Below, one piece after another: positions 33,134 through 49,792 of a stretch of 64,000 bases of DNA; position 1 is the stretch's first letter; each line of letters begins with the position of its first letter. Source of the DNA: Caulobacter sp. SL161 (GTDB lineage: Bacteria > Pseudomonadota > Alphaproteobacteria > Caulobacterales > Caulobacteraceae); the NCBI RefSeq assembly GCF_026672375.1, contig NZ_JAPPRA010000001.1, positions 2,170,001 through 2,234,000 of the forward strand, in the 5' to 3' direction. Both the position numbers and the translations under genes were made by a program. The notes under the pieces are model-generated. The model was not told the origin of the DNA. It saw only the letters and a list, made by a program, of their open reading frames with translations, and searched no databases.

Positions 33134-34408
33134 CTAGATCTTCACCGGCTCCATCTTGGGCGTCAGCAGGTGGACGACCAGAAGGGCGAGCAGATAGGCG
33201 CTGCCGGCCACGATGAAGATCGGCGTGTAGGTGCCGATGCTTTCCAGCACGCCGCCGATGTACTTCGAGAACACCATGCCGCCGACGGCGCCCAGCATGC
33301 CGCCGATACCGACGACCGAGCCGACGGCGCCGCGCGGGAACACGTCCGAGGGCAGGGTGTAGAGGTTGGCCGAGAAGCCCTGGTGAGCGGCGGTGGCGAC
33401 ACCGATGATCAGCACGGCGACCCAGAGCGAGTCCGCGAACGAGGCAAACATGACCGGCACGGCCAGCAGGGCGCAGATCAGCATGGTGATCTTGCGGGCC
33501 TTGTTGATGCTCCACCCCATCTTCATGAAGTTCGAGGACAGCCAGCCACCGCCGACGCTGCCGACGTCCGACAGCAGGTAGATGGCGACGATCGGCGGGC
33601 CGAAGGTCTTGAGGTCTAGGCCGTAGCGCTTGCCCAGGAAGTCCGGCAGCCAGAACAGGAACATCCACCAGATCGGGTCGATCAGGAACTTGCCGATGGC
33701 GTAGGCCCAGGTCTCGCGCTTGGTCAGAAGCTTGGTCCAGGCGATCTTCTCGACCGGGTCGGCCGGATCCTGCTCGATGTGCGCCAGCTCGGCGGCCGAC
33801 AGGTTCTTGGTTTCACGCGGCGTGCGATAGACCAGCAGCCAGATCGGCAGCCAGATCAGGCCCGCGACGCCCGTGACGATGAACGCCATCTGCCAGCCCC
33901 AGGCCAGCACGATGGCGGGCACCACCAGCGGGGTGACGATCGCGCCGATGTTGGTGCCGGCGTTGAAGATGCCGGTGGCGAAGGCGCGTTCCTTCTTGGG
34001 GAACCACTCGGTCACGGCCTTGATGCCGCCCGGGAAGCCGCCGGCCTCGCCGACGCCCAGCGCCATGCGGGCGAAGATGAAGCCGGTCAGACCGCGCGCG
34101 CCGGCGTGGGCGATGTGGGCGACTTGCCAGATCAGGAAGGCGATGCCGAAGCCCCAGCGGGCCCCGATCTTGTCCATGATCTTACCCCAGACGAGGTAGG
34201 CCACGGCGTAGGAGAGCTGGAAGTAGAAGACGAGGTTGGCGTAGTCGCTCTCGCTCCAGCCGAACTCCTTGGACAGGTCGGTCTTCAGGAAGCCGATCGT
34301 CTGGCGATCAACGTAGTTGATGACCATCGCCAAAAACAGCAGCGTGACGATAATCCAGCGATACCGTCCGATCTTTTCGGAGGGTTCGGGTGCTTTTGGC
34401 ACGTCCAT
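33134..34408 (-). CDS. exuT: MFS hexuronate transporter (ExuT type)
   Basis: This 424-residue permease has 12 predicted membrane helices and anion:cation symporter (ACS) signatures: INYVDRQTIGFLKTDLSKEFGW, YFQLSYAVAYLVWGKIMDKIGARWGF, FARMALGVGEAGGFPGGIKAVTEWFPKKERAFATGIFNAG. It is close to ExuT/GudP-type uptake systems for hexuronates and hexarates. It is downstream of an MhpD-like gene, both under a copy of the uronate operator, which supports uptake of glucuronate or galacturonate. Terminator follows. Confidence 0.92.
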   Translation of the reverse strand: MDVPKAPEPSEKIGRYRWIIVTLLFLAMVINYVDRQTIGFLKTDLSKEFGWSESDYANLVFYFQLSYAVAYLVWGKIMDKIGARWGFGIAFLIWQVAHIAHAGARGLTGFIFARMALGVGEAGGFPGGIKAVTEWFPKKERAFATGIFNAGTNIGAIVTPLVVPAIVLAWGWQMAFIVTGVAGLIWLPIWLLVYRTPRETKNLSAAELAHIEQDPADPVEKIAWTKLLTKRETWAYAIGKFLIDPIWWMFLFWLPDFLGKRYGLDLKTFGPPIVAIYLLSDVGSVGGGWLSSNFMKMGWSINKARKITMLICALLAVPVMFASFADSLWVAVLIIGVATAAHQGFSANLYTLPSDVFPRGAVGSVVGIGGMLGAVGGMVFSKYIGGVLESIGTYTPIFIVAGSAYLLALLVVHLLTPKMEPVKI

Positions 34409-34456
34409 CGACTTGGCTTCCTTCCCCAGAGGTGACTTGTCGTTCTGTTGTTAGCG

Positions 34457-35275
34457 TCAGGCCGGGACGGCCACGCAGTCCACGGTTCCGAACGGGCCGA
34501 AACTGACGTGGGCCACGTCGCCGGCGACCACGTCATGAATGCCGGTGGTGGCGCCGGTGGTGACGATCTGGCCCTTCTTCAGCGGCTTGCCGCGCGCGGC
34601 GACAGCGCCGAGCAGAAAGGCGAGGGCGGCGATCGGCGATCCCGGAATGGCCGCAGCCGTCGCCGTACCCACCGACTTGCCGTTGATGAAGGTCTCGACC
34701 GGCATATCCTCCCAGGCGAGGTCGCGCCAGTTGGAAATGGCCTGACCAATGATCTGACCATCGTTATTGCCGAAGTCCGACGCCACGACCGTGGGGCCCA
34801 GGGCGTTGATGGTCTTCAGAGGGCTGCCGGCGATCTCGACGCCCACCAGGAGTTCGCCCACATAGTCGGCGGCTTCCTCGACGGTCCAGTCGGTCTTGTT
34901 CGCGGGGGCGTCCTTGCCTAGGCGGATGATGAACTCGGCCTCGACGGCGCAGAAGCCGCCCTCGATGGCGCGGAAGGTGTTGGGCCCATCGGCCGACGCC
35001 TGCTGCACCTTCGACTTGAAGATGCAGCCCGCCAGGCGCTCGGCGCCCAGGCGTTCACGATGCTGCGGCGGCACTAGGCCGACCTTCCAGCCGACCAGTT
35101 CGTCGGGCCAAAGGTCGATGGCGATGTCTTGCACCGCATAACCGTCCGCCATGCTCGAAGGAATCACGCCGCCTGGATAGCCGGGGACGCTGACCCCCTG
35201 CTGGCGAGCCTGGACGAATTGGGGAGCGATGGCCGTAGGGGTGAAAATCTCACTGTCGGCCTTAGAAACGGTCAC
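34457..35275 (-). CDS. 2-keto-4-pentenoate hydratase / fumarylacetoacetase family protein
   Basis: This 272-residue protein belongs to the MhpD-like branch of the FAH superfamily: VGWKVGL near residue 62, CAVEAEFIIRLGKDAP with the metal-binding Glu pair, GVEIAGS, and the C-terminal GQIVTTGATTGIHDVVAGD. Such enzymes hydrate 2-hydroxy-2,4-dienoates or act on related 2-oxo acids. It lies 48 bases upstream of the ExuT-like gene and shares its operator, so a role in uronate or 2-keto-3-deoxy-sugar-acid metabolism is more likely than aromatic breakdown. The exact reaction is unknown. Confidence 0.85.
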   Translation of the reverse strand: MTVSKADSEIFTPTAIAPQFVQARQQGVSVPGYPGGVIPSSMADGYAVQDIAIDLWPDELVGWKVGLVPPQHRERLGAERLAGCIFKSKVQQASADGPNTFRAIEGGFCAVEAEFIIRLGKDAPANKTDWTVEEAADYVGELLVGVEIAGSPLKTINALGPTVVASDFGNNDGQIIGQAISNWRDLAWEDMPVETFINGKSVGTATAAAIPGSPIAALAFLLGAVAARGKPLKKGQIVTTGATTGIHDVVAGDVAHVSFGPFGTVDCVAVPA

Positions 35276-35337
35276 GCCGCAAGTCCTCCCTCGAATCCGG
35301 CACGTCCCCCGCTTTCGGGGTTTGCGATGTCTCTAGA

Positions 35338-35351
35338 GGAAACCGGTGTCA
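35338..35351. promoter_or_regulatory. Putative LacI-family operator upstream of the hydratase-exuT operon
   Basis: GGAAACCGGTGTCA differs in one base from the operators at 10602 and 18198. It lies 63 bases upstream of the hydratase start, more than 23 kb from the regulator gene, extending the regulon to a distal operon. Confidence 0.72.
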
Positions 35352-35447
35352 TTGACAATCGGGGCTGAAACATCCTCGTGCATGGAAATCCGAGGCCGCT
35401 CAGGGCACGAGCATTGCGTGCGTAGGGGGTGTAACCGTCGTCGCGAC

Positions 35448-35498
35448 TTGACACCCGTAATAGCGCGTATAGCGTCGCGCGTTGAATTACGGATGTAA
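35448..35498 (+). promoter_or_regulatory. Promoter and candidate BlaI-type operator
   Basis: A TTGACA box lies at 35448-35453. Overlapping it, ACACCCGTAAT (35451-35461) is mirrored by ATTACGGATGT (35486-35496), which extends to the palindrome TTACGGATGTAA. Autoregulation by the following repressor is the simplest reading; the -10 position is uncertain. Confidence 0.5.
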
Positions 35499-35503
35499 GC
35501 GTT

Positions 35504-35866
35504 ATGCACATCACCGCCGCCGAAGCTCATGTCATGGAAGCGCTCTGGCGCCGATCGCCACTGTCGGCCGACGAACTGGTGGCCGAGGTCGGTGCGGCGC
35601 AAAGCTGGGGCGAAGCCACCGTCAAGACGCTGATCAATCGTCTGCTGAAGAAGAAAGCCATCAAGTCCGAGCGCGCCGAGGGCAAGCACGGCTATCGGCC
35701 GCTGGTCGACCGCAGCGCCTATGTCCAGGCCGAAAGCCAGGGGCTGCTGGACCGCCTGTTCGACGGCCAACTGGCCCCCCTGATCAGCCACTTCGCCCAG
35801 CACCGCCCTCTGAAAGCCGACGAAGTGGCCAAGCTGAAGAAGCTGATCGACGAGATGGGCGAGTAG
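35504..35866 (+). CDS. BlaI/MecI/CopY-family transcriptional repressor
   Basis: This 120-residue winged-helix protein begins ITAAEAHVMEALWRRSPLSADEL and has SWGEATVKTLINRLLKKKAIKSER, the BlaI/MecI helix-turn-helix region. The C-terminal helical domain (about 75-120) is the dimerisation part. Classical partners are BlaR1/MecR1 sensor proteases; none is adjacent. A beta-lactamase-fold serine hydrolase starts 59 bases downstream on the same strand and is the probable co-regulated gene. Confidence 0.93.
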   Translation: MHITAAEAHVMEALWRRSPLSADELVAEVGAAQSWGEATVKTLINRLLKKKAIKSERAEGKHGYRPLVDRSAYVQAESQGLLDRLFDGQLAPLISHFAQHRPLKADEVAKLKKLIDEMGE

Positions 35867-35925
35867 GGCTGGAGAGGCTTTAGCCTAGATTTTTCGCCCT
35901 TTGGGGTTCTCAAGCGGATGGATCG

Positions 35926-37338
35926 ATGCGCCTTCTGATCGCCGTCGCTTTCGTCGTCGCTGCGCTTGCCGCCCCCCTGACGGTTTCCGCTGAGGTCGCC
36001 TTGCCCTCGACGCCTGCGGGCGACGCCGCCAAAGCCTATCTTCGCGCTTTAAACGCTGGCGATCGCGCGAAAGCCGCCGCCTTCATCAAGGATAGCTTCC
36101 CAACCTCGCCAATCGACGCCGACGGGCTCGTCGGTTTCGCGCGTCAGGTTGGCGGGTTTGATCTGGTTCGGATCGAGACTGAGACGCCGACCGCGCTCAC
36201 GGCCCTGGTCCGCGAACGGTACGGCGAGACCTATGCCCGTCTGCGCGTCGAGGTCGACCCCGCCGCGCCCACACAGATCAAGGCTCTCGGCGCGCGAGTC
36301 GCCCCGCGTCCCGACGATATTGTCGCCGCGCCTCGCCTGGACGACACCGCTCTGACCAGAGCCGTGGCCGAGAAGTTGGCCGTGATGGGCCAGAACTATT
36401 CAGGTGTCGTGCTCATCGCGCGCAAGGGCAAGCCGTTCACCGTTATGGCGCAGGGCTTCGCTGATCGCGAGCATCGGGTCCCGATTACGCCCACAACGCG
36501 TTTCCGGGTCGGCTCGATGAACAAGATGCATACGGCCGTCGCGGTTCTTCAGCTGGCTCAGGCTGGGAAGCTGGACCTGCAGGCCCCCTTGATTACCTAC
36601 CTGAAGGACTATCCCAGCGCCGCCTGGGCCCGGAAGGTCACCCTCCATCAGTTGCTGACCCACACCGGCGGCGCAGGCGATTTCTTTGGGCCGGAGTACG
36701 ACAAGAACCGCAACGCCCTGCGAACGCTTCAGGACTATGTCGCGCTCTATGGCGCTCGCGAGCCCACCTTCGAGCCCGGCGCGAGGTGGGAGTATGCGAA
36801 CTACGGCTTCATTCTGCTGGGCCGAGTTGTCGAAGTGGTCTCGGGTCAGAGCTATTACGACTATGTCCGCGACCACGTCTTCAAGCCGGCGGGCATGACC
36901 GGCAGCGGCTTTGAGCCGGAAACGACGCCCGTGCCGGATCGCGCCTTGGCCTATGAGTATGTTGGCGAGGTCTTCAAGCCCGCTGATGGTCTCCCCTGGC
37001 GCGGCACGTCAGCGGGCGGGGGCTATGCGACGGCGGAGGATTTTCTCAGGTTCGCCGTCGCGCTCTATGACGGTCGTTTGCTGGACCAAACCCACCGTAG
37101 GCTGATGACCACGGCCCAGGCCGACGACGCTCGCGGGGGGAAGTATGGCTATGGGCTCTCGATCCCGCCGTCGGAATTTCCCATGGTCGGACACGGTGGG
37201 GGCGCGCCCGGCATGAATGGCGATCTGAGAATCCTTGCTGACGGCGAAGGGGTGGTCGTCACCCTCAGCAACGTCGCCCCGCCGTTTCTCGCTGGGCGTC
37301 TCAGCCAATTCGTCGTTGATCGGTTTTCGGTCCCCTAA
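35926..37338 (+). CDS. Periplasmic serine hydrolase, beta-lactamase class C fold
   Basis: This 470-residue protein has a signal peptide (about 1-22) and an N-terminal domain (about 25-145) like the small helical/cystatin-like domain in DUF3887-type proteins. The catalytic domain has nucleophile Ser197 in GSMNK, Tyr-Xaa-Asn as YANYG near residue 289, and HGGG in GHGGGAPGMNGD. It follows a BlaI-like repressor in a likely operon, so it may be induced by cell-wall or beta-lactam stress. A D,D-peptidase or esterase role is as likely as antibiotic hydrolysis. Confidence 0.9.
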   Translation: MRLLIAVAFVVAALAAPLTVSAEVALPSTPAGDAAKAYLRALNAGDRAKAAAFIKDSFPTSPIDADGLVGFARQVGGFDLVRIETETPTALTALVRERYGETYARLRVEVDPAAPTQIKALGARVAPRPDDIVAAPRLDDTALTRAVAEKLAVMGQNYSGVVLIARKGKPFTVMAQGFADREHRVPITPTTRFRVGSMNKMHTAVAVLQLAQAGKLDLQAPLITYLKDYPSAAWARKVTLHQLLTHTGGAGDFFGPEYDKNRNALRTLQDYVALYGAREPTFEPGARWEYANYGFILLGRVVEVVSGQSYYDYVRDHVFKPAGMTGSGFEPETTPVPDRALAYEYVGEVFKPADGLPWRGTSAGGGYATAEDFLRFAVALYDGRLLDQTHRRLMTTAQADDARGGKYGYGLSIPPSEFPMVGHGGGAPGMNGDLRILADGEGVVVTLSNVAPPFLAGRLSQFVVDRFSVP

Positions 37339-37374
37339 AGCCTTGGGGCTTCAGAACAGGCGAAATCACCGTCC

Positions 37375-37428
37375 GCCACCGCCACCGCCACCGCCACCGC
37401 CACCGCCACCGCCACCGCCACCGCCACC
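37375..37428. repeat. Hexanucleotide tandem repeat (GCCACC)9
   Basis: Nine perfect copies of GCCACC are followed by GCCGCC. The array lies in the 100-bp gap between convergent genes, 13 bases from the TonB receptor stop. Read in one frame it encodes proline runs, but no gene supports translation. Such a perfect array is prone to copy-number change. Confidence 0.95.
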
Positions 37429-37441
37429 GCCGCCAGACCGG

Positions 37442-40312
37442 CTAGAATAGCACCTTGCGAACGCTGAACTGGATCACCCGACCGCGCGGATCCAGATAGT
37501 CCTCCTGATAGGCCAGGGGCGTCGCGCCTGTGGCGTCGCGCACCTTGGTCCTGCCGTCGAACAGGTTGTTGACCGACAGGGTCAGCCGCGCGCCGCGCAG
37601 GATGGGATAGGTCTGGACCAGCTCGCGCCGCACGCCGAGGTCGGCGAACAGGCGAAGGTTGACCGTCGCCAGGCTGGAGAAGTCGAGGTCGCTGGTCGCG
37701 CCGCCGGCGCCGGCCTCGACATGGGTCCCGCTCTTCCAGTTGGCGGTTAGGCGCGCGCCCAGCCCGTAGCGGGTGATCCCGGCCTGGGCCTCGACCTCGT
37801 GGCGCGCCTGGCCGCCGCTCGAGCCCAGGACATCGCCGTTCAGCAGGTCGAGGACGGGCAGGCCTTGGGCGATCGTGACCTGCTCCTTGAGGTGAAGCGT
37901 GTGGAACAGGGCCAGCTGTAGGCGGGTGGCGCGCGGATTGCCGCCGCCGCGACCGCCAAAGCCGCGCCCGTCGCCGCCGCCGCCTCCACCACCACCGCCG
38001 CCAAAGCGCGGGCCACTATCGCCGCGCGCGCCGCCGTCGGAGGCTGGGCGAGGCGGCTCGTCTCCCGTCGGGACGGCAGCGGGCGTCTGCGCGGTGTTGG
38101 GATCGTTTGAGGTCTCACCCGTCGACCGTCGCGTACGCTCGGTGTTCTCGGCGGCCCGCAGGATGTCCGCAGCGGCGGCTTGCTGCCGGTCGCCCCCGCC
38201 GTTTCCGGCCGGGGCCGGCGGAGTCCTGCCGATCTGGCGCGAGAAGTTGAAGCCCCAGCGAACCTGCTCGCTTTCGCGCCGCTGGAAGTTGACCGGCCGG
38301 GTGTCGATCCGTGTCAGCACGCCGTCGGCGTCGCGCGTGAAGCGGTCGCGGAAGGCGGCCTCGACCGCCGCTGTGGCGGCCGGGAAGCTGGCGACAGGAT
38401 CGTCGATCCGTGTGCGGCTGTAGTTGGCGGTGAATGACAGGCCCTGGATCTTCTCGGGCTTATAGGTGGCCCCCAGGCGCAGGACGTTGCGGGTCTCGCC
38501 CTTGAGGTTGGGATTACCGCCGCTGACCCGCGTGACGTCGACGCTGGTCCCACGCACATAGTCGAAGACCTGGCTGCCGGGGGTGACGATCAGCGGATTG
38601 CCCAGCTGGGCGATGCTGGGCGCGTTCTCCTGCCGCGTCGCCGACAGGATGACGCTGACGGGCTTGACCGGCGACCAGTTGAGGCCGCCGCCCAGCGTGG
38701 TCAGGGTCCCGACGTCGGAGACCTGCCGCGCGGCGAGGTTCAGATTGGCCGACAGGTCGCCGATCTCGGCGCGGACGCCCTTGCGGCGGCTGGCCAGGGG
38801 CAGGTCGAAGCTGACCTGGGCGTTGGCCTCGCCCCGCGACAACGTGCTGTCGCTCTGGACGCCCGCTCGGATGGACGTCGCCTCAAGCCGCGATCCCGTC
38901 GCGCCTAGCTTGACGGTGGTCGACAGGTCGCCGGCCCGGAGCTTGGCCAGGGCGCGGTTGGCGACGAACTGCAGATCGGCGGTGTCGGTCGTCGACTTGG
39001 CGCGGTCGGTGTTCAGCGGCAGAACCGGCAGAGCGCCGAACGGGTTCAGGCCCGCCTCCAGCGCGGTCAGGCGGCCTTGCAGAGCGCTCAAGTCGACGCT
39101 GCGATCGGTCTCGGTCTTGGTGGTCGCGCGCCCAAAGGTCCCGGTGAGGGACAGGCGCAGGGTCTCAGTGTCGCGGTTCAGGGTGAAACCGGCGTTGCCG
39201 GCGATGTTCCGGGACATCTGGCCCAGAGCGTCCTGGTCGCCGAGATAGCGATACAGCAGCACGTCCTGACCGAACGGCGAAAACGGGCTGGCGGCGGGCA
39301 GGGTGAGGCGCGCCCTCGCCGGGCCTTGCAGCGAGTCGTTCTGCGAGGCGGTCAGGCCCAGGTTCAGCGTCGCGGAGACGTCATCGAGGATATAGCGGTT
39401 GGTGACGCTGTTGATCGTCAGCTGGCGGTTGCGGGGCAGCAGCGTGCGATCGCCGGTGATGTCGCTGGTGTTGGCCTGGTTCGCGGTCGGCAGGAAGGCG
39501 GACAGGCTGGGCGGGCCGGCGGCGGCCGAGGCCGGAACGCCGGCCACGGTCACGGGCGTTCCCGCCAGGGCGCTGAGCGCGGTGAGCGCGCCGCCGCTGG
39601 CGGGCGTGACGTTGCCGGAGAAATCGTAGAGCCCGGTGCTGGAGCGGCTGACGAGGTCACGGTCGCTTTCCAGCAACTGGTCGCTGTTCTGCAGCTTAAC
39701 CGACAGATTGGTGCGGCCCTGGCGGTTCAGCTGCAGCTGGCTCCAGGACAGTTGCTCGGTCATCTGGCCGCCCTCTGTCGAACCGCCCAGCGTCGCATCG
39801 AGCGTGGTGGCGCGGAAGCGCTGGCGCAGCACGATGTTCACGACCTTCTGGTCAGCCGAATAGCCGTATTTGAGCGCCACTTCCTCGGGCAACACCTCGA
39901 CGCGCTGGATGGCTTCGGTGGGAATGTCGCGAATCTCGCCGCGCCCAGAGATACGACGGCCGTTCAGCAGGATGACCGGATCACCCCCCAGGCCGCTGGT
40001 GGTCTGGGGCTGCAGTTCGGTGAGCAGGTCCTCGACCGAGCTGACGCCGATCGCGCGCACGTCGGCGGTGGTGAAGGTCTGTTCCGGCGGGATGTCGCCC
40101 AGCACTGCGCCAAAGGGCTTGCCGCTGGCGGTGATGGTGACGGCCTCGACCTCGGTGTCTGCTGGGTCCAGGGACGTAGCGGCCTGGGCGGGCGACGGCG
40201 CCGCGCCGACGGGCTGGACCTGTTGAGCTTGCGCCGCGCCGGCGGTGACAAGGCTCAGGACGCCGGCGAGGGCGAGTTTACGGCTCACGATGAGCGTCTC
40301 CGAAATCGACAC
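37442..40312 (-). CDS. TonB-dependent receptor with Gly-rich insert
   Basis: This 956-residue outer-membrane receptor has a signal peptide ending AGAAQA (about residue 29), a plug (FTTADVRAIGVSSVEDLLTEL, VILLNGRRISGRGEIRDIPTEAIQRVEVLPEEVALKYGY) and a beta-barrel ending in ..VIQFSVRKVLF with terminal Phe. Between about residues 700 and 810 there is an unusual hydrophilic insertion, finishing in a long glycine run. The ligand is unknown; no regulator or enzyme partner is adjacent. It reads toward the hexamer repeat. Confidence 0.92.
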   Translation of the reverse strand: MSISETLIVSRKLALAGVLSLVTAGAAQAQQVQPVGAAPSPAQAATSLDPADTEVEAVTITASGKPFGAVLGDIPPEQTFTTADVRAIGVSSVEDLLTELQPQTTSGLGGDPVILLNGRRISGRGEIRDIPTEAIQRVEVLPEEVALKYGYSADQKVVNIVLRQRFRATTLDATLGGSTEGGQMTEQLSWSQLQLNRQGRTNLSVKLQNSDQLLESDRDLVSRSSTGLYDFSGNVTPASGGALTALSALAGTPVTVAGVPASAAAGPPSLSAFLPTANQANTSDITGDRTLLPRNRQLTINSVTNRYILDDVSATLNLGLTASQNDSLQGPARARLTLPAASPFSPFGQDVLLYRYLGDQDALGQMSRNIAGNAGFTLNRDTETLRLSLTGTFGRATTKTETDRSVDLSALQGRLTALEAGLNPFGALPVLPLNTDRAKSTTDTADLQFVANRALAKLRAGDLSTTVKLGATGSRLEATSIRAGVQSDSTLSRGEANAQVSFDLPLASRRKGVRAEIGDLSANLNLAARQVSDVGTLTTLGGGLNWSPVKPVSVILSATRQENAPSIAQLGNPLIVTPGSQVFDYVRGTSVDVTRVSGGNPNLKGETRNVLRLGATYKPEKIQGLSFTANYSRTRIDDPVASFPAATAAVEAAFRDRFTRDADGVLTRIDTRPVNFQRRESEQVRWGFNFSRQIGRTPPAPAGNGGGDRQQAAAADILRAAENTERTRRSTGETSNDPNTAQTPAAVPTGDEPPRPASDGGARGDSGPRFGGGGGGGGGGDGRGFGGRGGGNPRATRLQLALFHTLHLKEQVTIAQGLPVLDLLNGDVLGSSGGQARHEVEAQAGITRYGLGARLTANWKSGTHVEAGAGGATSDLDFSSLATVNLRLFADLGVRRELVQTYPILRGARLTLSVNNLFDGRTKVRDATGATPLAYQEDYLDPRGRVIQFSVRKVLF

Positions 40313-45051: not shown

Positions 45052-47427
45052 TCAGGGGCGCGGCTCCGGCGGCGGCGGCGCCAGCGGAGCGCCGCTATTG
45101 GTCGGCGGGGCGGGCTCGTCGGTGGGCGGGGTGAACGGCGCCAGCGGCAGACCGTCCGGGCCAAGCTCGCCTTCCAGTGGCAGACCCAGGTCCTCCAGCG
45201 GGTCCTCCTCGACGACGGGGGCGACATCGCGGCCCAGCGCCGAAAGCATGAACGCCTTCCAGATCCTGGCGGGCTCGCCGCCGCCGACCACGCCGTTCAT
45301 CGAGCTGTTGTCGTCATTGCCCAGCCAGACGCCGACGACCAGGTCCTCGACGTAACCGACGAAAATGGCGTCGTGATAGTCCTGGGTGGTGCCGGTCTTG
45401 CCAAAGGCGCCGGGGATGGCGGCCTCGATGCCGGTGCCGCGATGGGTCGCCGACCGCAGCAGGTCGCGCATATTGGCCAGCACCTTGGGGTCGTAGGCCT
45501 TGGTCTTGGGCTTCTTGAAGTCGGCCAGGCCGTGCGGAACGATCGGATACTCGCCGGCCGCGACCGAGGCATAGGCGGCGGTCAGGCGGGTCAGGCTCAT
45601 CGGACCCGTGCCCAGCGCCATGGTCAGGTCGGAGGGGATCTCCTCGGTGACGCCCAGGTCTCGGGCGACCTTGATCACCTTGGCGGGACCCAGATCATGC
45701 GCCAGGCGGACCGCCGCGACATTGGACGAGCCGGCGAAGGCGGTGATCAGCGGCACCTCGCGGGCGTGATACTTGCCCTCATGGTTCTTGGGCATGTAGC
45801 CGCTGACCTGGACGGGGGTGTCGAGGATCGGCGTCGTGACCGTCATGCCTTCGCGCAGGGCGGCCAGATAGACGAACAGCTTGAACGCCGAGCCTGGCTG
45901 ACGCTCGGCGTCCGCGCGGTTGAACTGGGTCTGCTTGTAGTCGCGGCCGCCGACCATGGCGACGACTCGGCCATCTCTGCGCATGGCGACCAGGGCGCCT
46001 TGGGTGACGTTCAGCACCTCGCCGTCGCGTTCGATATAGTCGTTGAGAATGCGCTCGGCCTTCTCCTGCAGTTCGGGGTCCAGCGTCGTCTTGACGATGG
46101 TCTCGCCGTAGCGAGCTCCGATCAGGGCGCGAGCCTGGGGCAGGGCCCAGTCGGCGAAGTAGGAGCCGGTGGGCAGCTTTTCCTGCGCTTCGACAGGCGA
46201 CACCTCGCCCACAGCGTCGGCCTCCGCCTGGGTGATGGTCTTGGTCTCGACCATGGCCCCCAGCACCACGCGCATGCGCTCAAGGGCGCCTTCGATATTG
46301 TTGGTCGGCGCCAGGCGCGAGGGCGCCTTGACCAGGCCCGCCAGCATCGCCGCCTCGCCGATGGTCAGCTGTTCGGGCGGCTTGCCGAAATAGTGCCGGG
46401 CCGCCGCGCGCAGGCCATAGGCGCCGTCGCCGAAATAGACCGACGACAGATAGCGCGACAGGATCTCGTCCTTCGAGAGGCGCGCCTCCAGATAGACTGC
46501 AATCAAGGCTTCCTGCGCCTTGCGGCGCAGATTGCGGTCGCTGGACAGGAAGGCGTTCTTGGCCAGTTGCTGGGTGATGGTCGAGCCGCCTTCGGACACC
46601 CCGCCCGCCTGGGCGTTGCGGCCCAGCGCGCGGGCGATGGCCTTCGGGTCGACGCCCATGTGGCTGTAGAACCGACGATCCTCGATGGCGATGAAGGCCC
46701 CCGGCACGTAAGGCGGCAGCTTGGCCACATCGATCGGCGCTTCCTTGTAGGAGCCCCGGCGGGCGATGGGCGAGCCGTCCTCGGCCACCAGCACGATCGC
46801 CGAGTTGTCCAGCGGCTCCAGCGCGCGGCTCAGCGGCAGCGACCAGAACAGCGAGGCGATCAGAACGATCACCAGCGCCACAGCGGCCCCGGCGCCGATC
46901 AGCCAGGCCGGTCGCTTCCAGATCGGCGGCTTGGCGACGGGCGCGGGTTGCTCGGGGACGGAGGCGGCGACCGCCTCGACCTTCGGTTTGGGCGCGTCCT
47001 CGACCGAGGGGGCGGGCTCAAGCGGAGCAGGGACCTCTGACGCGGCGTCTGACGTCGGCGCGATATCGGGCTCAATCTCGGTTTCCGGCGCGGCGTCGGC
47101 GGCCGGAGTGATCGTGGTCGTTTCGGCGGCGTCAGGCTCCGCCGTGCTCGCCTCGACCTGCGGCGCAGGTTCGAAGAGATCGGCGTCGGCGTCCTCTGGG
47201 GCCGCCGTCACGACAGGCGGCGTCTCGACCTCGGGGACCGCGACGACCTCGGGCTGGGCGCGGCGCGACTTGCGCGCCCGGCGCGGCTTGGGCGGCGTGG
47301 CCTCGGGCGCGGCGGGATCCAGGCCGGCGGCCTCGGTCATGACGGTCTGGGCGCGCGGCTTGCGCGGCCGCCGAGGCTTCGGCGCCGGCGCGGCGGGAAC
47401 GTCTGCAGGGTCGGTGGGATCAGACAT
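45052..47427 (-). CDS. Penicillin-binding protein 1A-type bifunctional transglycosylase/transpeptidase
   Basis: This 791-residue class A PBP polymerises and cross-links peptidoglycan. It has a long disordered Pro/Ala/Glu cytoplasmic N-terminus (about 1-165), a transmembrane helix (about 172-195), a GT51 domain (EDRRFYSHMGVDPKAIAR, GGSTITQQLAKN, RKAQEALIAVYLEARLSKDEIL) and a transpeptidase domain with SAFK, SSN and KTGTTQD motifs. The Pro-rich C-terminus is short. The 165-residue cytoplasmic tail is unusually long and could bind cytoskeletal partners. Several Caulobacter PBP1A paralogues exist, so no specific symbol is given. Confidence 0.96.
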   Translation of the reverse strand: MSDPTDPADVPAAPAPKPRRPRKPRAQTVMTEAAGLDPAAPEATPPKPRRARKSRRAQPEVVAVPEVETPPVVTAAPEDADADLFEPAPQVEASTAEPDAAETTTITPAADAAPETEIEPDIAPTSDAASEVPAPLEPAPSVEDAPKPKVEAVAASVPEQPAPVAKPPIWKRPAWLIGAGAAVALVIVLIASLFWSLPLSRALEPLDNSAIVLVAEDGSPIARRGSYKEAPIDVAKLPPYVPGAFIAIEDRRFYSHMGVDPKAIARALGRNAQAGGVSEGGSTITQQLAKNAFLSSDRNLRRKAQEALIAVYLEARLSKDEILSRYLSSVYFGDGAYGLRAAARHYFGKPPEQLTIGEAAMLAGLVKAPSRLAPTNNIEGALERMRVVLGAMVETKTITQAEADAVGEVSPVEAQEKLPTGSYFADWALPQARALIGARYGETIVKTTLDPELQEKAERILNDYIERDGEVLNVTQGALVAMRRDGRVVAMVGGRDYKQTQFNRADAERQPGSAFKLFVYLAALREGMTVTTPILDTPVQVSGYMPKNHEGKYHAREVPLITAFAGSSNVAAVRLAHDLGPAKVIKVARDLGVTEEIPSDLTMALGTGPMSLTRLTAAYASVAAGEYPIVPHGLADFKKPKTKAYDPKVLANMRDLLRSATHRGTGIEAAIPGAFGKTGTTQDYHDAIFVGYVEDLVVGVWLGNDDNSSMNGVVGGGEPARIWKAFMLSALGRDVAPVVEEDPLEDLGLPLEGELGPDGLPLAPFTPPTDEPAPPTNSGAPLAPPPPEPRP

Positions 47428-47536
47428 GGACTTGGCGCTCGCTTCGGGCGCAGGCCCTCATTCGTCGAGGGCGCTCATATCACACGACCCGGGCAAGCCA
47501 AGCGGGCCGCGCGTGAAGAATCTTTCAGGTCGGGCC

Positions 47537-47564
47537 TTGAAACGGTCGCAAGTGAACATAGATC
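47537..47564 (+). promoter_or_regulatory. Promoter of the candidate small RNA
   Basis: TTGAAA (47537-47542) and TAGATC (47559-47564) are separated by 16 bases. The -10 fits the end of the Caulobacter housekeeping form GCTANAWC. Expected start is near 47571. Confidence 0.5.
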
Positions 47565-47570
47565 ACCTGC

Positions 47571-47650
47571 GTGAGGCTGAGAGCCTCTGCCCTTCCCGGG
47601 GCGTTTCCTCCCTACTTATTCCAGCCCGGCCATCCGCCGGGCTTTTCTTT
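47571..47650 (+). ncRNA. Candidate small RNA, about 80 nt
   Basis: A promoter-like sequence, a short transcript and a perfect intrinsic terminator occur in order on the plus strand, although no protein gene precedes the terminator on that strand. The transcript begins with a GAGGCT-GAG-AGCCTC hairpin, followed by an unpaired pyrimidine-rich stretch containing TTTCCTCCCTAC. It ends with AGCCCGGC-CATCC-GCCGGGCT plus TTTCTTTT (47623-47650). The CCUCC single-stranded motif could pair with Shine-Dalgarno sequences, as in many alphaproteobacterial regulatory RNAs. Confidence 0.65.
47623..47650 (+). terminator. Intrinsic terminator of the candidate small RNA
   Basis: An eight-base-pair GC-rich stem (AGCCCGGC/GCCGGGCT), five-base loop CATCC and a T-rich tail. 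It points away from the divergent PBP gene and toward the 3' end of the TonB receptor gene, so it serves a plus-strand transcript. Confidence 0.9.
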
Positions 47651-47710
47651 TGGCGGTTATGGCGTTCGCGCCGATCGGAGCCGCCGACCGGCGCGAACGC
47701 TGGGTGGGGT

Positions 47711-49792
47711 CTAGAAGCTCACGCGCAGCCGGCCCGTGACCGTGCGCGGCGCGCCCGGCGTGATCCAGACGTTGTTGTACGAGCTTTCCAGGTAATAGGT
47801 GTCGAACAGGTTCTCGACATCCAGATGCAGCGAGACCGCCTTCGACACCTTGTAGGCGAGGTTGGCGCGCACCGTCACATAGTCCGGCAGCTTGAAGCCG
47901 GTGTTGACGTCGTCGCCCGCGCGCTCGCCGACATAGACGACGCCGCCGCCCAGGGTCACCGAGCCCGGCGCCTCGCCGTCCGAGCGCCAGTTGGCGTACA
48001 CCGCGCCCGAGTGCTTTGGGACATTACTCAAGGCGCTACCGACCATGTTGGCCCGGGTGTCGCGGGTGATCTCGGTGTCGGTGTAGGCGTAGACCGCCGT
48101 GGCGGTGATGCCCTTGGGCAGGCGAAGATTGGTCTCGGCCTCCACGCCCTGGCTGCGCGCGGCGCCCACAGGGATGAAGAAGCCGCTGTTGGCCGGGTCA
48201 TTGACCAGGATATTTTCCTTGTCGATGCGGAACAGCGACGCGGTGCCCGTCAGGCGGCCGGCCAGGTCCCACTTTACGCCGGCTTCCCAGGCCTCGCCCT
48301 TCTCGGGCGGGAAGGCGCCGCCCGCAGCGTCTGAGCCCTGATTGTAGCGGAACGAGCGTCCCCAGCTGACATAGGCCGAGAAGCTCTCGTTCGGCGCCCA
48401 GGTCAGGGCTGCGCGCGGTGAGGCTTGCGAGGGCGACTGCCGGGTGACGGTGTTGTTGCGGTAGTTGGTGTTGGTCTGGCGGATCCAGTCCTGGCGGACT
48501 CCGACCAGCAGGGTGAATTGGCTGTTCAGCGTCACCAGGTCCTGCAGGTAGAGGCTCTCGCCGCGCAGTTCCTCCAGCACGTTCTGGTTCAGCGGCGCGA
48601 CCGGCTTGGCCTGACCGTAGACAGGGTTGAGGATGTCGATGGCGTATGGCGAGGCGGCCGTCGGGTTGAAGCGATAGAAGATCCGGCGCTGCTCGTAGGT
48701 GAAGGCGTCGGCGCCGGCGCGCAACTGGTGCTCCAGTCCGCCGAGCTTGCCGTCGAAGCTGACCTCGATCCGGCCGGAGAGGTCATCCCAGGTGTAGTCA
48801 TGGATGCGCAGCTGGCGGCGCAGTTGGGTTCCGACCAGCGACCCGTTGTGCGTGGACTGACCCCGGAACGAGCCGTCGCGATACTGCACGCCGGCTTCCA
48901 CCGCGACGCTCGGGCTGAAGTTGTAGGTGGTGGTCAGCTGGTGCTGGATCGTCTTCTGCGTGATGTCGCCATCGTTCGGTTCGCCGAGGAACCGCTCGCG
49001 CGGCAGCGCCTTGCCGTCGCCGGCGACCGCCACCAGGCCCCGGTCATGCACGAAGTGCACGGTGTTGGCCTCCATCTGGTAGAGCAGGCGCAGGTCGTCC
49101 GACGGCGTCCAGGCCAGCGACGGGGCCAGCAGCAGGCGGTCGCTGCCGACATGATCGCGCCAACCGTCCGTGTCCTGATAGACGGCGATCATGCGGGCCG
49201 AGACGCCGCCGCCCACGGGACCGCTGAGGTCGCCCATGATCCGCTTGGCGTCGAAGCTGCCATACGACAGCTCGCCGGCGCCTTGGGCGGTTTCGGTCGG
49301 GGCCTTGGTGACGATGTTGATCGAGCCGCCCGGCTCGCCCTTGCCTGACAGGGCCGAGGCGGGGCCTTTGAGCACCTGGAAGCGCTCGACAGTGGCGACG
49401 TCGCGCCGCGCGTTGAAGCCTCGGTTGGCCGTGAAGCGGTTCACCAGCAGGTCCGGGCCCTGATTGATGTCGCCCGAGAACCCGCGGATCGCATAGGCGT
49501 CCCACGCCCCGCCGAAGCTGTTCTGGCGGGCCATGCCGCCGGCGAAATCAAAGAGGTCCGATAGGTTGGTCACGCCGGTGTCGACGATCAGCGCCTCGTC
49601 GAGCACCCGCACGCTCTGCGGCAGTCGCATCGGGTCGATCACGACGCCGTTGATGCTGGCGCTGGCTGCGCGCGAGCCGGTGATCACGACGCTGTCGACC
49701 TCGTTGGCCTTGTCCTGCGCGAGGGCCAGGTCCGTGAAGGCGAACTGCGAGGCGCCCGCGCAAAGCGCGAACAGGAGGGCCTTGGTGGTCAT
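47711..49792 (-). CDS. TonB-dependent siderophore/metal receptor
   Basis: This 693-residue outer-membrane receptor has a signal peptide ending ALA (about residue 25), a TonB-box-like SVVITGSR, a plug (MRLPQSVRVLDEALI, FEVLKGP-like FQVLKGPASALSGKGEPGGSINIVTKAP) and a 22-strand barrel ending RLRVSF. This is the TonB-siderophor branch used for ferric siderophores and other metal chelates. It is divergent from an ABC exporter/importer set with a Zur-like palindrome between them, which favours a zinc or metallophore ligand. Confidence 0.93.
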   Translation of the reverse strand: MTTKALLFALCAGASQFAFTDLALAQDKANEVDSVVITGSRAASASINGVVIDPMRLPQSVRVLDEALIVDTGVTNLSDLFDFAGGMARQNSFGGAWDAYAIRGFSGDINQGPDLLVNRFTANRGFNARRDVATVERFQVLKGPASALSGKGEPGGSINIVTKAPTETAQGAGELSYGSFDAKRIMGDLSGPVGGGVSARMIAVYQDTDGWRDHVGSDRLLLAPSLAWTPSDDLRLLYQMEANTVHFVHDRGLVAVAGDGKALPRERFLGEPNDGDITQKTIQHQLTTTYNFSPSVAVEAGVQYRDGSFRGQSTHNGSLVGTQLRRQLRIHDYTWDDLSGRIEVSFDGKLGGLEHQLRAGADAFTYEQRRIFYRFNPTAASPYAIDILNPVYGQAKPVAPLNQNVLEELRGESLYLQDLVTLNSQFTLLVGVRQDWIRQTNTNYRNNTVTRQSPSQASPRAALTWAPNESFSAYVSWGRSFRYNQGSDAAGGAFPPEKGEAWEAGVKWDLAGRLTGTASLFRIDKENILVNDPANSGFFIPVGAARSQGVEAETNLRLPKGITATAVYAYTDTEITRDTRANMVGSALSNVPKHSGAVYANWRSDGEAPGSVTLGGGVVYVGERAGDDVNTGFKLPDYVTVRANLAYKVSKAVSLHLDVENLFDTYYLESSYNNVWITPGAPRTVTGRLRVSF

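Follow-up and report, generated by a model that had tools for sequence, protein, structure and literature searches.

Background

Four sibling small RNAs of the alphaR8 family, SisA-D (CCNA_R0014, R0133, R0143 and R0157), have been described in Caulobacter crescentus, where they share the core UUUCCUCCCU and have been studied by means of Northern blot, Hfq RIL-seq and probing (PMC12559287). All four are among the Hfq-enriched sRNAs, CCNA_R0143 with 34.9-fold enrichment (PMC11005374). Expression and binding by CrfA are described for all four siblings and mRNA repression for SisA, whose many repressed mRNAs include a validated target coding for a TonB-dependent receptor, CCNA_03574; where the mode of action was shown, the 10-mer is responsible (PMC12559287). 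CrfA is a sponge RNA induced by carbon starvation which counteracts the siblings, each of them protecting G49-C63 of CrfA in vitro (PMC12559287). MmgR of Sinorhizobium meliloti, namesake of the corresponding Rfam family RF00519, is present there in single copy and has a known effect on polyhydroxybutyrate (PMC12559287). The same four Caulobacter RNAs that PMC12559287 assigns to alphaR8 are filed as alphar15 homologs in PMC6561178, so that the family names in the two sources conflict.

The present analysis concerns a 64-kb stretch of the genome of Caulobacter sp. SL161 (hereafter the window; all coordinates refer to it unless preceded by C1), for which an earlier note had proposed a candidate small RNA in 114 bases between a PBP1A gene and a TonB receptor gene.

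Results and discussion

Locus and architecture of the predicted RNA

An RNA of about 80 nt, composed of two 5' hairpins, the unpaired UUUCCUCCCU and a terminator, is predicted to be encoded on the plus strand at 47571-47650. The following features were assigned to the locus:

45052..47427, minus strand: PBP1A (transglycosylase and transpeptidase; Pfam PF00912, PF00905), divergent from the sRNA
47536..47541, plus strand: putative -35-like box CTTGAA (from conservation)
47557..47563, plus strand: putative -10-like box CATAGAT (from conservation)
47571..47650, plus strand: predicted sRNA, probable SisC ortholog of the alphaR8/MmgR family (from homology to SisA numbering, position of the -10 box and RF00519 match)
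47573..47587, plus strand: first 5' hairpin, GAGGCU/AGCCUC (from the fold and pairing in orthologs)
47588..47603, plus strand: second (weak) hairpin, GCCC/GGGC, the alphaR8 hairpin (from the Rfam structure line)
47604..47613, plus strand: UUUCCUCCCU, single-stranded seed with anti-Shine-Dalgarno sequence (from the fold, the family alignment and the published SisA-D core)
47616..47620, plus strand: U/A-rich stretch 5' of the terminator, possible Hfq contact (from the sequence)
47623..47651, plus strand: Rho-independent terminator, 8-bp stem 47623-47643 and U tail (from the sequence and family covariation)
47711..49792, minus strand: TonB-dependent receptor (Pfam PF00593, PF07715), convergent with the sRNA

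The 5' hairpin, the unpaired UUUCCUCCCU stretch and the perfect terminator described in the earlier note are present in the sequence, and the 114-base stretch folds with -44.8 kcal/mol (z = -3.18; 2 of 200 shuffles equally good). Its first ~34 bases, however, are assigned to the promoter, leaving the ~80-nt RNA with a probable start at 47571. In the fold of the 80-nt RNA from 47571, the 10-mer at 47604-47613 is unpaired with p 0.97-0.99; TTTCCTCCC is invariant in all 32 aligned family copies and the tenth base of the 10-mer is variable. Of the two 5' hairpins, the helix of the first is paired in 93.9 % of cells with five of six pairs invariant (11 distinct orthologs), and the second, mostly invariant, in 96.9 % of cells (32 sequences). 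The U/A-rich stretch corresponds to a feature of class I sRNAs (PMC6561178), and the perfect 8-bp terminator stem (47623-47643) is followed by TTTCTTTT. A mechanical 522-aa plus-strand frame (46766-48334) spans the site, but it runs antisense to PBP1A and the receptor gene and looks spurious; the terminator thus stands, as had been noted, without a protein gene ahead of it on its strand.

Family assignment

For the 64-kb window, Rfam gave a single hit at the gathering cut-off, RF00519 (suhB/MmgR, i.e. alphaR8) at 47582-47658, with 47.7 bits as compared to the curated cut-off of 41 bits (E 1e-06 for the window) and covering the whole model (positions 1-77 of 77). Within 601 bases around the site, RF00519 ranked first (E 9.7e-09) among eight Rfam hits up to E = 1. 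A full-length match of this kind is taken to raise the window element above chance. Hits to the Betaproteobacteria toxic sRNA (27.2 bits, cut-off 50) and to MH_s10 (27 bits, cut-off 81) were rejected. Among 199 genomes sampled from the bacterial family to which the source genome belongs, 195 contained RF00519.

Three features of the alphaR8 family are found at the locus, namely a score over the cut-off, single-stranded UUUCCUCCCU after a weak hairpin and a Rho-independent terminator, and for the four Caulobacter RNAs the Rfam results support alphaR8 rather than alphar15. The likeness to MmgR consists in the full-model match, the core and the terminator layout; in contrast to the one copy in S. 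meliloti, the source genome harbours four copies over the cut-off.

With a probability of roughly 0.94, the locus represents the gene of a trans-acting, Hfq-dependent alphaR8 (MmgR/suhB, RF00519) sRNA orthologous to C. crescentus SisC (CCNA_R0143). The sRNA, about 80 nt long, would be transcribed from a promoter of its own and end at its own terminator, and its unpaired UUUCCUCCCU would pair with G/A-rich ribosome-binding sites, among them those of TonB-dependent receptor mRNAs, thereby repressing translation. Upon carbon starvation, the G/A-rich loop of CrfA, complement of UUUCCUCCCU, would bind the siblings and free their targets. The sequence itself shows membership in the family, the presence of four copies, synteny, conservation of the promoter boxes and the terminator, and a crfA with matching loop; by analogy, the window copy presumably acts in SL161 as the published siblings do. 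The pairing of an exposed CCUCC motif with ribosome-binding sites, as put forward in the earlier note, gains support from the RF00519 match and the published work on SisA-D. The window sRNA is real, was correctly read from raw sequence as an RNA pairing with ribosome-binding sites, and is already known in C. crescentus.

Genomic copies and their probable SisA-D counterparts

Four RF00519 copies over the cut-off were identified in the source genome, that of the window being the weakest at 47.7 bits, plus one at 31.2 bits (L005, see below). Copy L002 adjoins an FGase gene (PF05013), as does sisA (PMC12559287), and fits as the SisA counterpart. This counterpart of SisA (CCNA_R0014), the best studied of the siblings, shares with the window copy the identical 10-mer, the family match and the start motif GTGAGG; it lies by the FGase gene, whereas the window copy adjoins PBP1A. 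Copy L003 (C1:1748662-1748741, minus strand) is located 1.8 kb from a recA match (C1:1746047-1746832) and fits SisB (CCNA_R0133), because the number R0133 follows R0132, which is the recA 3' UTR (PMC6237742). This SisB-like copy carries UUUCCUCCCA in place of UUUCCUCCCU and has a different 5' end.

The R01xx numbers increase along the genome, from R0100 at 165 kb through R0108 at 473 kb to R0180 at 3.27 Mb (PMC5869019), with further anchors at CCNA_02158 (R0155) and CCNA_02277 (R0158) (PMC6237742). CCNA_01584, annotated as PBP 1A, is found at about 1.70 Mb in NA1000. Since this position suits R0143 among the position-ordered numbers, the name SisC (CCNA_R0143) suits the window copy, a name derived from gene order and not from the NA1000 sequence. 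R0016, by number a near neighbour of sisA, lies at 844 kb (PMC5869019), and the shift between NA1000 and the source genome amounts to about 0.52 Mb at both sisA and the window copy. Judged by position, the window PBP is probably CCNA_01584 rather than a paralog; by remainder, copy L001 would correspond to SisD (R0157). PMC12130487 settles nothing on the window PBP, because the number CCNA_01584 is given there to both PBP1a and PBPx.

The comparison with published Caulobacter sRNAs that the earlier note had called for leads to SisA-D and, by gene order, to SisC, with which the window copy shares the UUUCCUCCCU core, the weak hairpin, the terminator, the complementarity to CrfA and, as gene order suggests, probably the place in the genome. 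It differs in that the source is another strain or a close species; the window PBP1A and its counterpart in C. vibrioides DSM 9893 share 89 % identity.

Complementarity to the sponge RNA CrfA

A search of the source genome for the seed and its complement listed 51 places, eight of them exact, and half of the latter are the alphaR8 genes themselves. Seven places (L103-L109) were read, most one-mismatch places being left out. L103 was chosen as CrfA candidate by complementarity and hairpin before Rfam naming, and was then named CrfA by Rfam (RF01527, 160.7 bits):

C1:304692-304827, minus strand: crfA (Rfam RF01527)

L104-L109 were rejected on reading, none of them looking CrfA-like; the Rfam scan covered L103 and L105 of the seven.

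The duplex predicted between the window RNA and CrfA comprises 15 pairs (one G-U) at CrfA 49-63 with -33.2 kcal/mol, a value attained by none of 2000 shuffled cores, and covers the CrfA stretch footprinted in print. The whole-RNA energy gain with CrfA is -15.4 kcal/mol, reached by 7 of 300 shuffled sRNAs. The window RNA thus displays the complementarity to the second stem-loop of CrfA which marks a sibling. CrfA, encoded in the source genome as a sponge of the siblings and not a member of the alphaR8 family, was found in 73 of the 75 genomes of the genus. The SisA-D/CrfA circuit, here with four siblings that exceed the cut-off and a single crfA, is hereby extended to another Caulobacter genome; its biology, a carbon feast-to-famine switch with control of TonB receptors, is already in print.

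Linkage to PBP1A and candidate targets

Rfam scans covered 25 of 48 PBP1A-like loci, the other 23 (<=41 % identity) being left out. In 11 of the 14 close PBP1A relatives, which show 67-89 % identity, RF00519 was hit on the strand opposite to PBP1A, together with the promoter boxes. No RF00519 hit was obtained for the remaining three (L045, L046, L059) or for any of 11 more distant loci (second Rfam scan of 14 loci, in which these three were repeated), so the place of the sRNA beside PBP1A is confined to part of the genus. All 11 hit-bearing loci have an ATG behind the sRNA that is in frame with the PBP, making a divergent arrangement as in the window possible; in L038, L039, L041, L042, L044 and L056 the tblastn match begins inside the PBP and the true start is uncertain. 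In three relatives, cobalamin riboswitches were observed about 1.4-2.5 kb behind the PBP1A gene:

L039 7525-7725, minus strand: cobalamin riboswitch (Rfam scan)
L040 6559-6744, minus strand: cobalamin riboswitch (Rfam scan)
L043 7538-7714, minus strand: cobalamin riboswitch (Rfam scan)

Its position between two genes and its presence beside PBP1A in most close relatives (11 of 14) could be taken to mean that the sRNA is a local regulator controlling the adjoining PBP1A or TonB receptor gene. This is very improbable, as the sRNA overlaps neither gene, SisA as the sibling that has been studied is trans-acting (PMC12559287), and seed pairing with the start regions places PBP1A 20th and the flanking receptor 24th among 42 window ORFs, which were chosen by length and a GC-position rule and have uncertain start codons. 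The flanking genes were rejected as targets on these ranks, and regulation of wall genes, as proposed in the earlier note, or of either neighbour is unsupported. Outer-membrane receptors as a class are supported, CCNA_03574 being a published SisA target and a receptor gene with AGGGAGGAAA being present in the source genome. The ORFs at ranks 1-3 of the 42 lie close together at 33134-40312 (minus strand): one is FAA-hydrolase-like, one encodes an MFS transporter, and the third, of 956 aa, gave a weak outer-membrane-barrel hit below threshold. They may form a catabolic cluster under the control of the siblings.

In a TonB receptor gene at C1:251197 (minus strand; Plug domain), the 10-mer finds its full complement, AGGGAGGAAA, two bases ahead of the ATG. 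This gene is 16 kb away from nepR, which is CCNA_03590, and by gene-number distance to nepR is estimated to fit the position of CCNA_03574. Its pairing is not clearly above chance, 140 of 2000 shuffled cores being as strong. The pattern GGGAGGAA-ATG occurs at 20 places in the source genome versus none in the reversed control, an excess that strong Shine-Dalgarno sites would yield anyway. Two of these places (L084, L090), the only ones domain-scanned, both carry the TonB receptor Plug domain; because two are too few, enrichment of TonB receptors is not claimed.

Putative promoter, transcript start and covariation

The -35-like box CTTGAA is identical in all 12 PBP1A-linked copies (window and 11 orthologs), and a CATAGAT or CATAACT box is found in 11 of them, being degenerate in locus L043; the spacer between the two boxes is variable. 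PMC12559287 reports no promoter motif common to the siblings. While the promoter-like boxes pointed out in the earlier note are thus present and conserved, a sigma-70 scan of the region yielded no promoter site, and the case for a promoter is built on box conservation instead, from which the function of the boxes is presumed. The PBP1A-linked copy offers a clean comparative case for sibling sRNAs gaining separate promoters.

The numbering published for SisA, with pairing G33-C45 and mutation C40G (PMC12559287), agrees with the L002 sequence provided that SisA starts at GTGAGG (hand count). In the window copy this motif is located at 47571, seven bases past the end of TAGATC (47559-47564); homology with the SisA numbering and the distance from the -10 box make this the probable start of the transcript.

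Across the 12 orthologs, 33 of the first 42 RNA positions are invariant (in the alignment, the L042 terminator is misaligned by one column). Of the covariation analysis suggested in the earlier note, the part confined to the 11 distinct PBP1A-linked orthologs gave no measure above shuffles and is uninformative because the stems are almost invariant, whereas the terminator stem covaries strongly family-wide. In the family alignment of 32 copies, five of its eight pairs are changed on both sides, with 40 such cells, whereas shuffles gave 17.9, none of the 500 reaching 40, and slid structures used as control at most 12. The whole-structure covariation score is 0.263 versus 0.107 shuffled, likewise with 0 of 500 shuffles as high.

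These data bear on the view that the site harbours merely a terminator and intergenic hairpins, but no small RNA gene. High-GC DNA folds readily, and 0.9 such terminator sites are expected by chance in shuffles of the 1.4-kb region, for which reason the terminator alone is no evidence. Given the full-length RF00519 match, promoter boxes kept beside a variable spacer, the invariant 5' part of the RNA, the covarying terminator stem and the published expression of the C. crescentus siblings (PMC12559287), this view is hardly tenable.

No GGAAC box occurs in 47500-47571. GGAAC is part of the consensus of the sigma-T (EcfG) promoter of GsrN. Another C-rich-loop sRNA, i.e. the general stress RNA GsrN, which likewise has a C-rich loop, or an AbcR/alphar15 RNA, as the four homologs are named in PMC6561178, can practically be dismissed, since besides the missing GGAAC box neither name is among the eight Rfam hits up to E = 1 (an Rfam model of GsrN being presumed) and the Rfam model ar15 (RF02345) had no match in the source genome in a search run without positive control.

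A divergent element behind a chemoreceptor gene

The only new lead is L005 (C1:921826-921910, minus strand), a sub-threshold RF00519 hit (31.2 bits, cut-off 41) that follows, at a distance of 23 bases, the end of a gene for a chemoreceptor with MCPsignal and HAMP domains. It could be an unreported divergent sibling, or else a chance likeness. A more far-reaching proposal, unlikely to hold as a whole, is that the PBP1A-linked sibling is an addition of the Caulobacter clade whose own conserved promoter places the alphaR8 regulon common to the siblings under a separate signal, and that L005 is a fifth CrfA-binding sibling; if true, the sibling set would be larger than the published four.

L005 consists of a hairpin, UUCCUCCCC and a terminator; in its fold, the first two of the nine UUCCUCCCC bases are paired or half paired and the others free. 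Pairing of its core with CrfA is predicted at -24.5 kcal/mol, with 18 of 2000 shuffles as strong. Of 75 genomes of the genus, 18, the source genome included, gave blastn matches to L005, in some cases only partial, and two of six fetched L005-like copies contain UCCCUCCCC.
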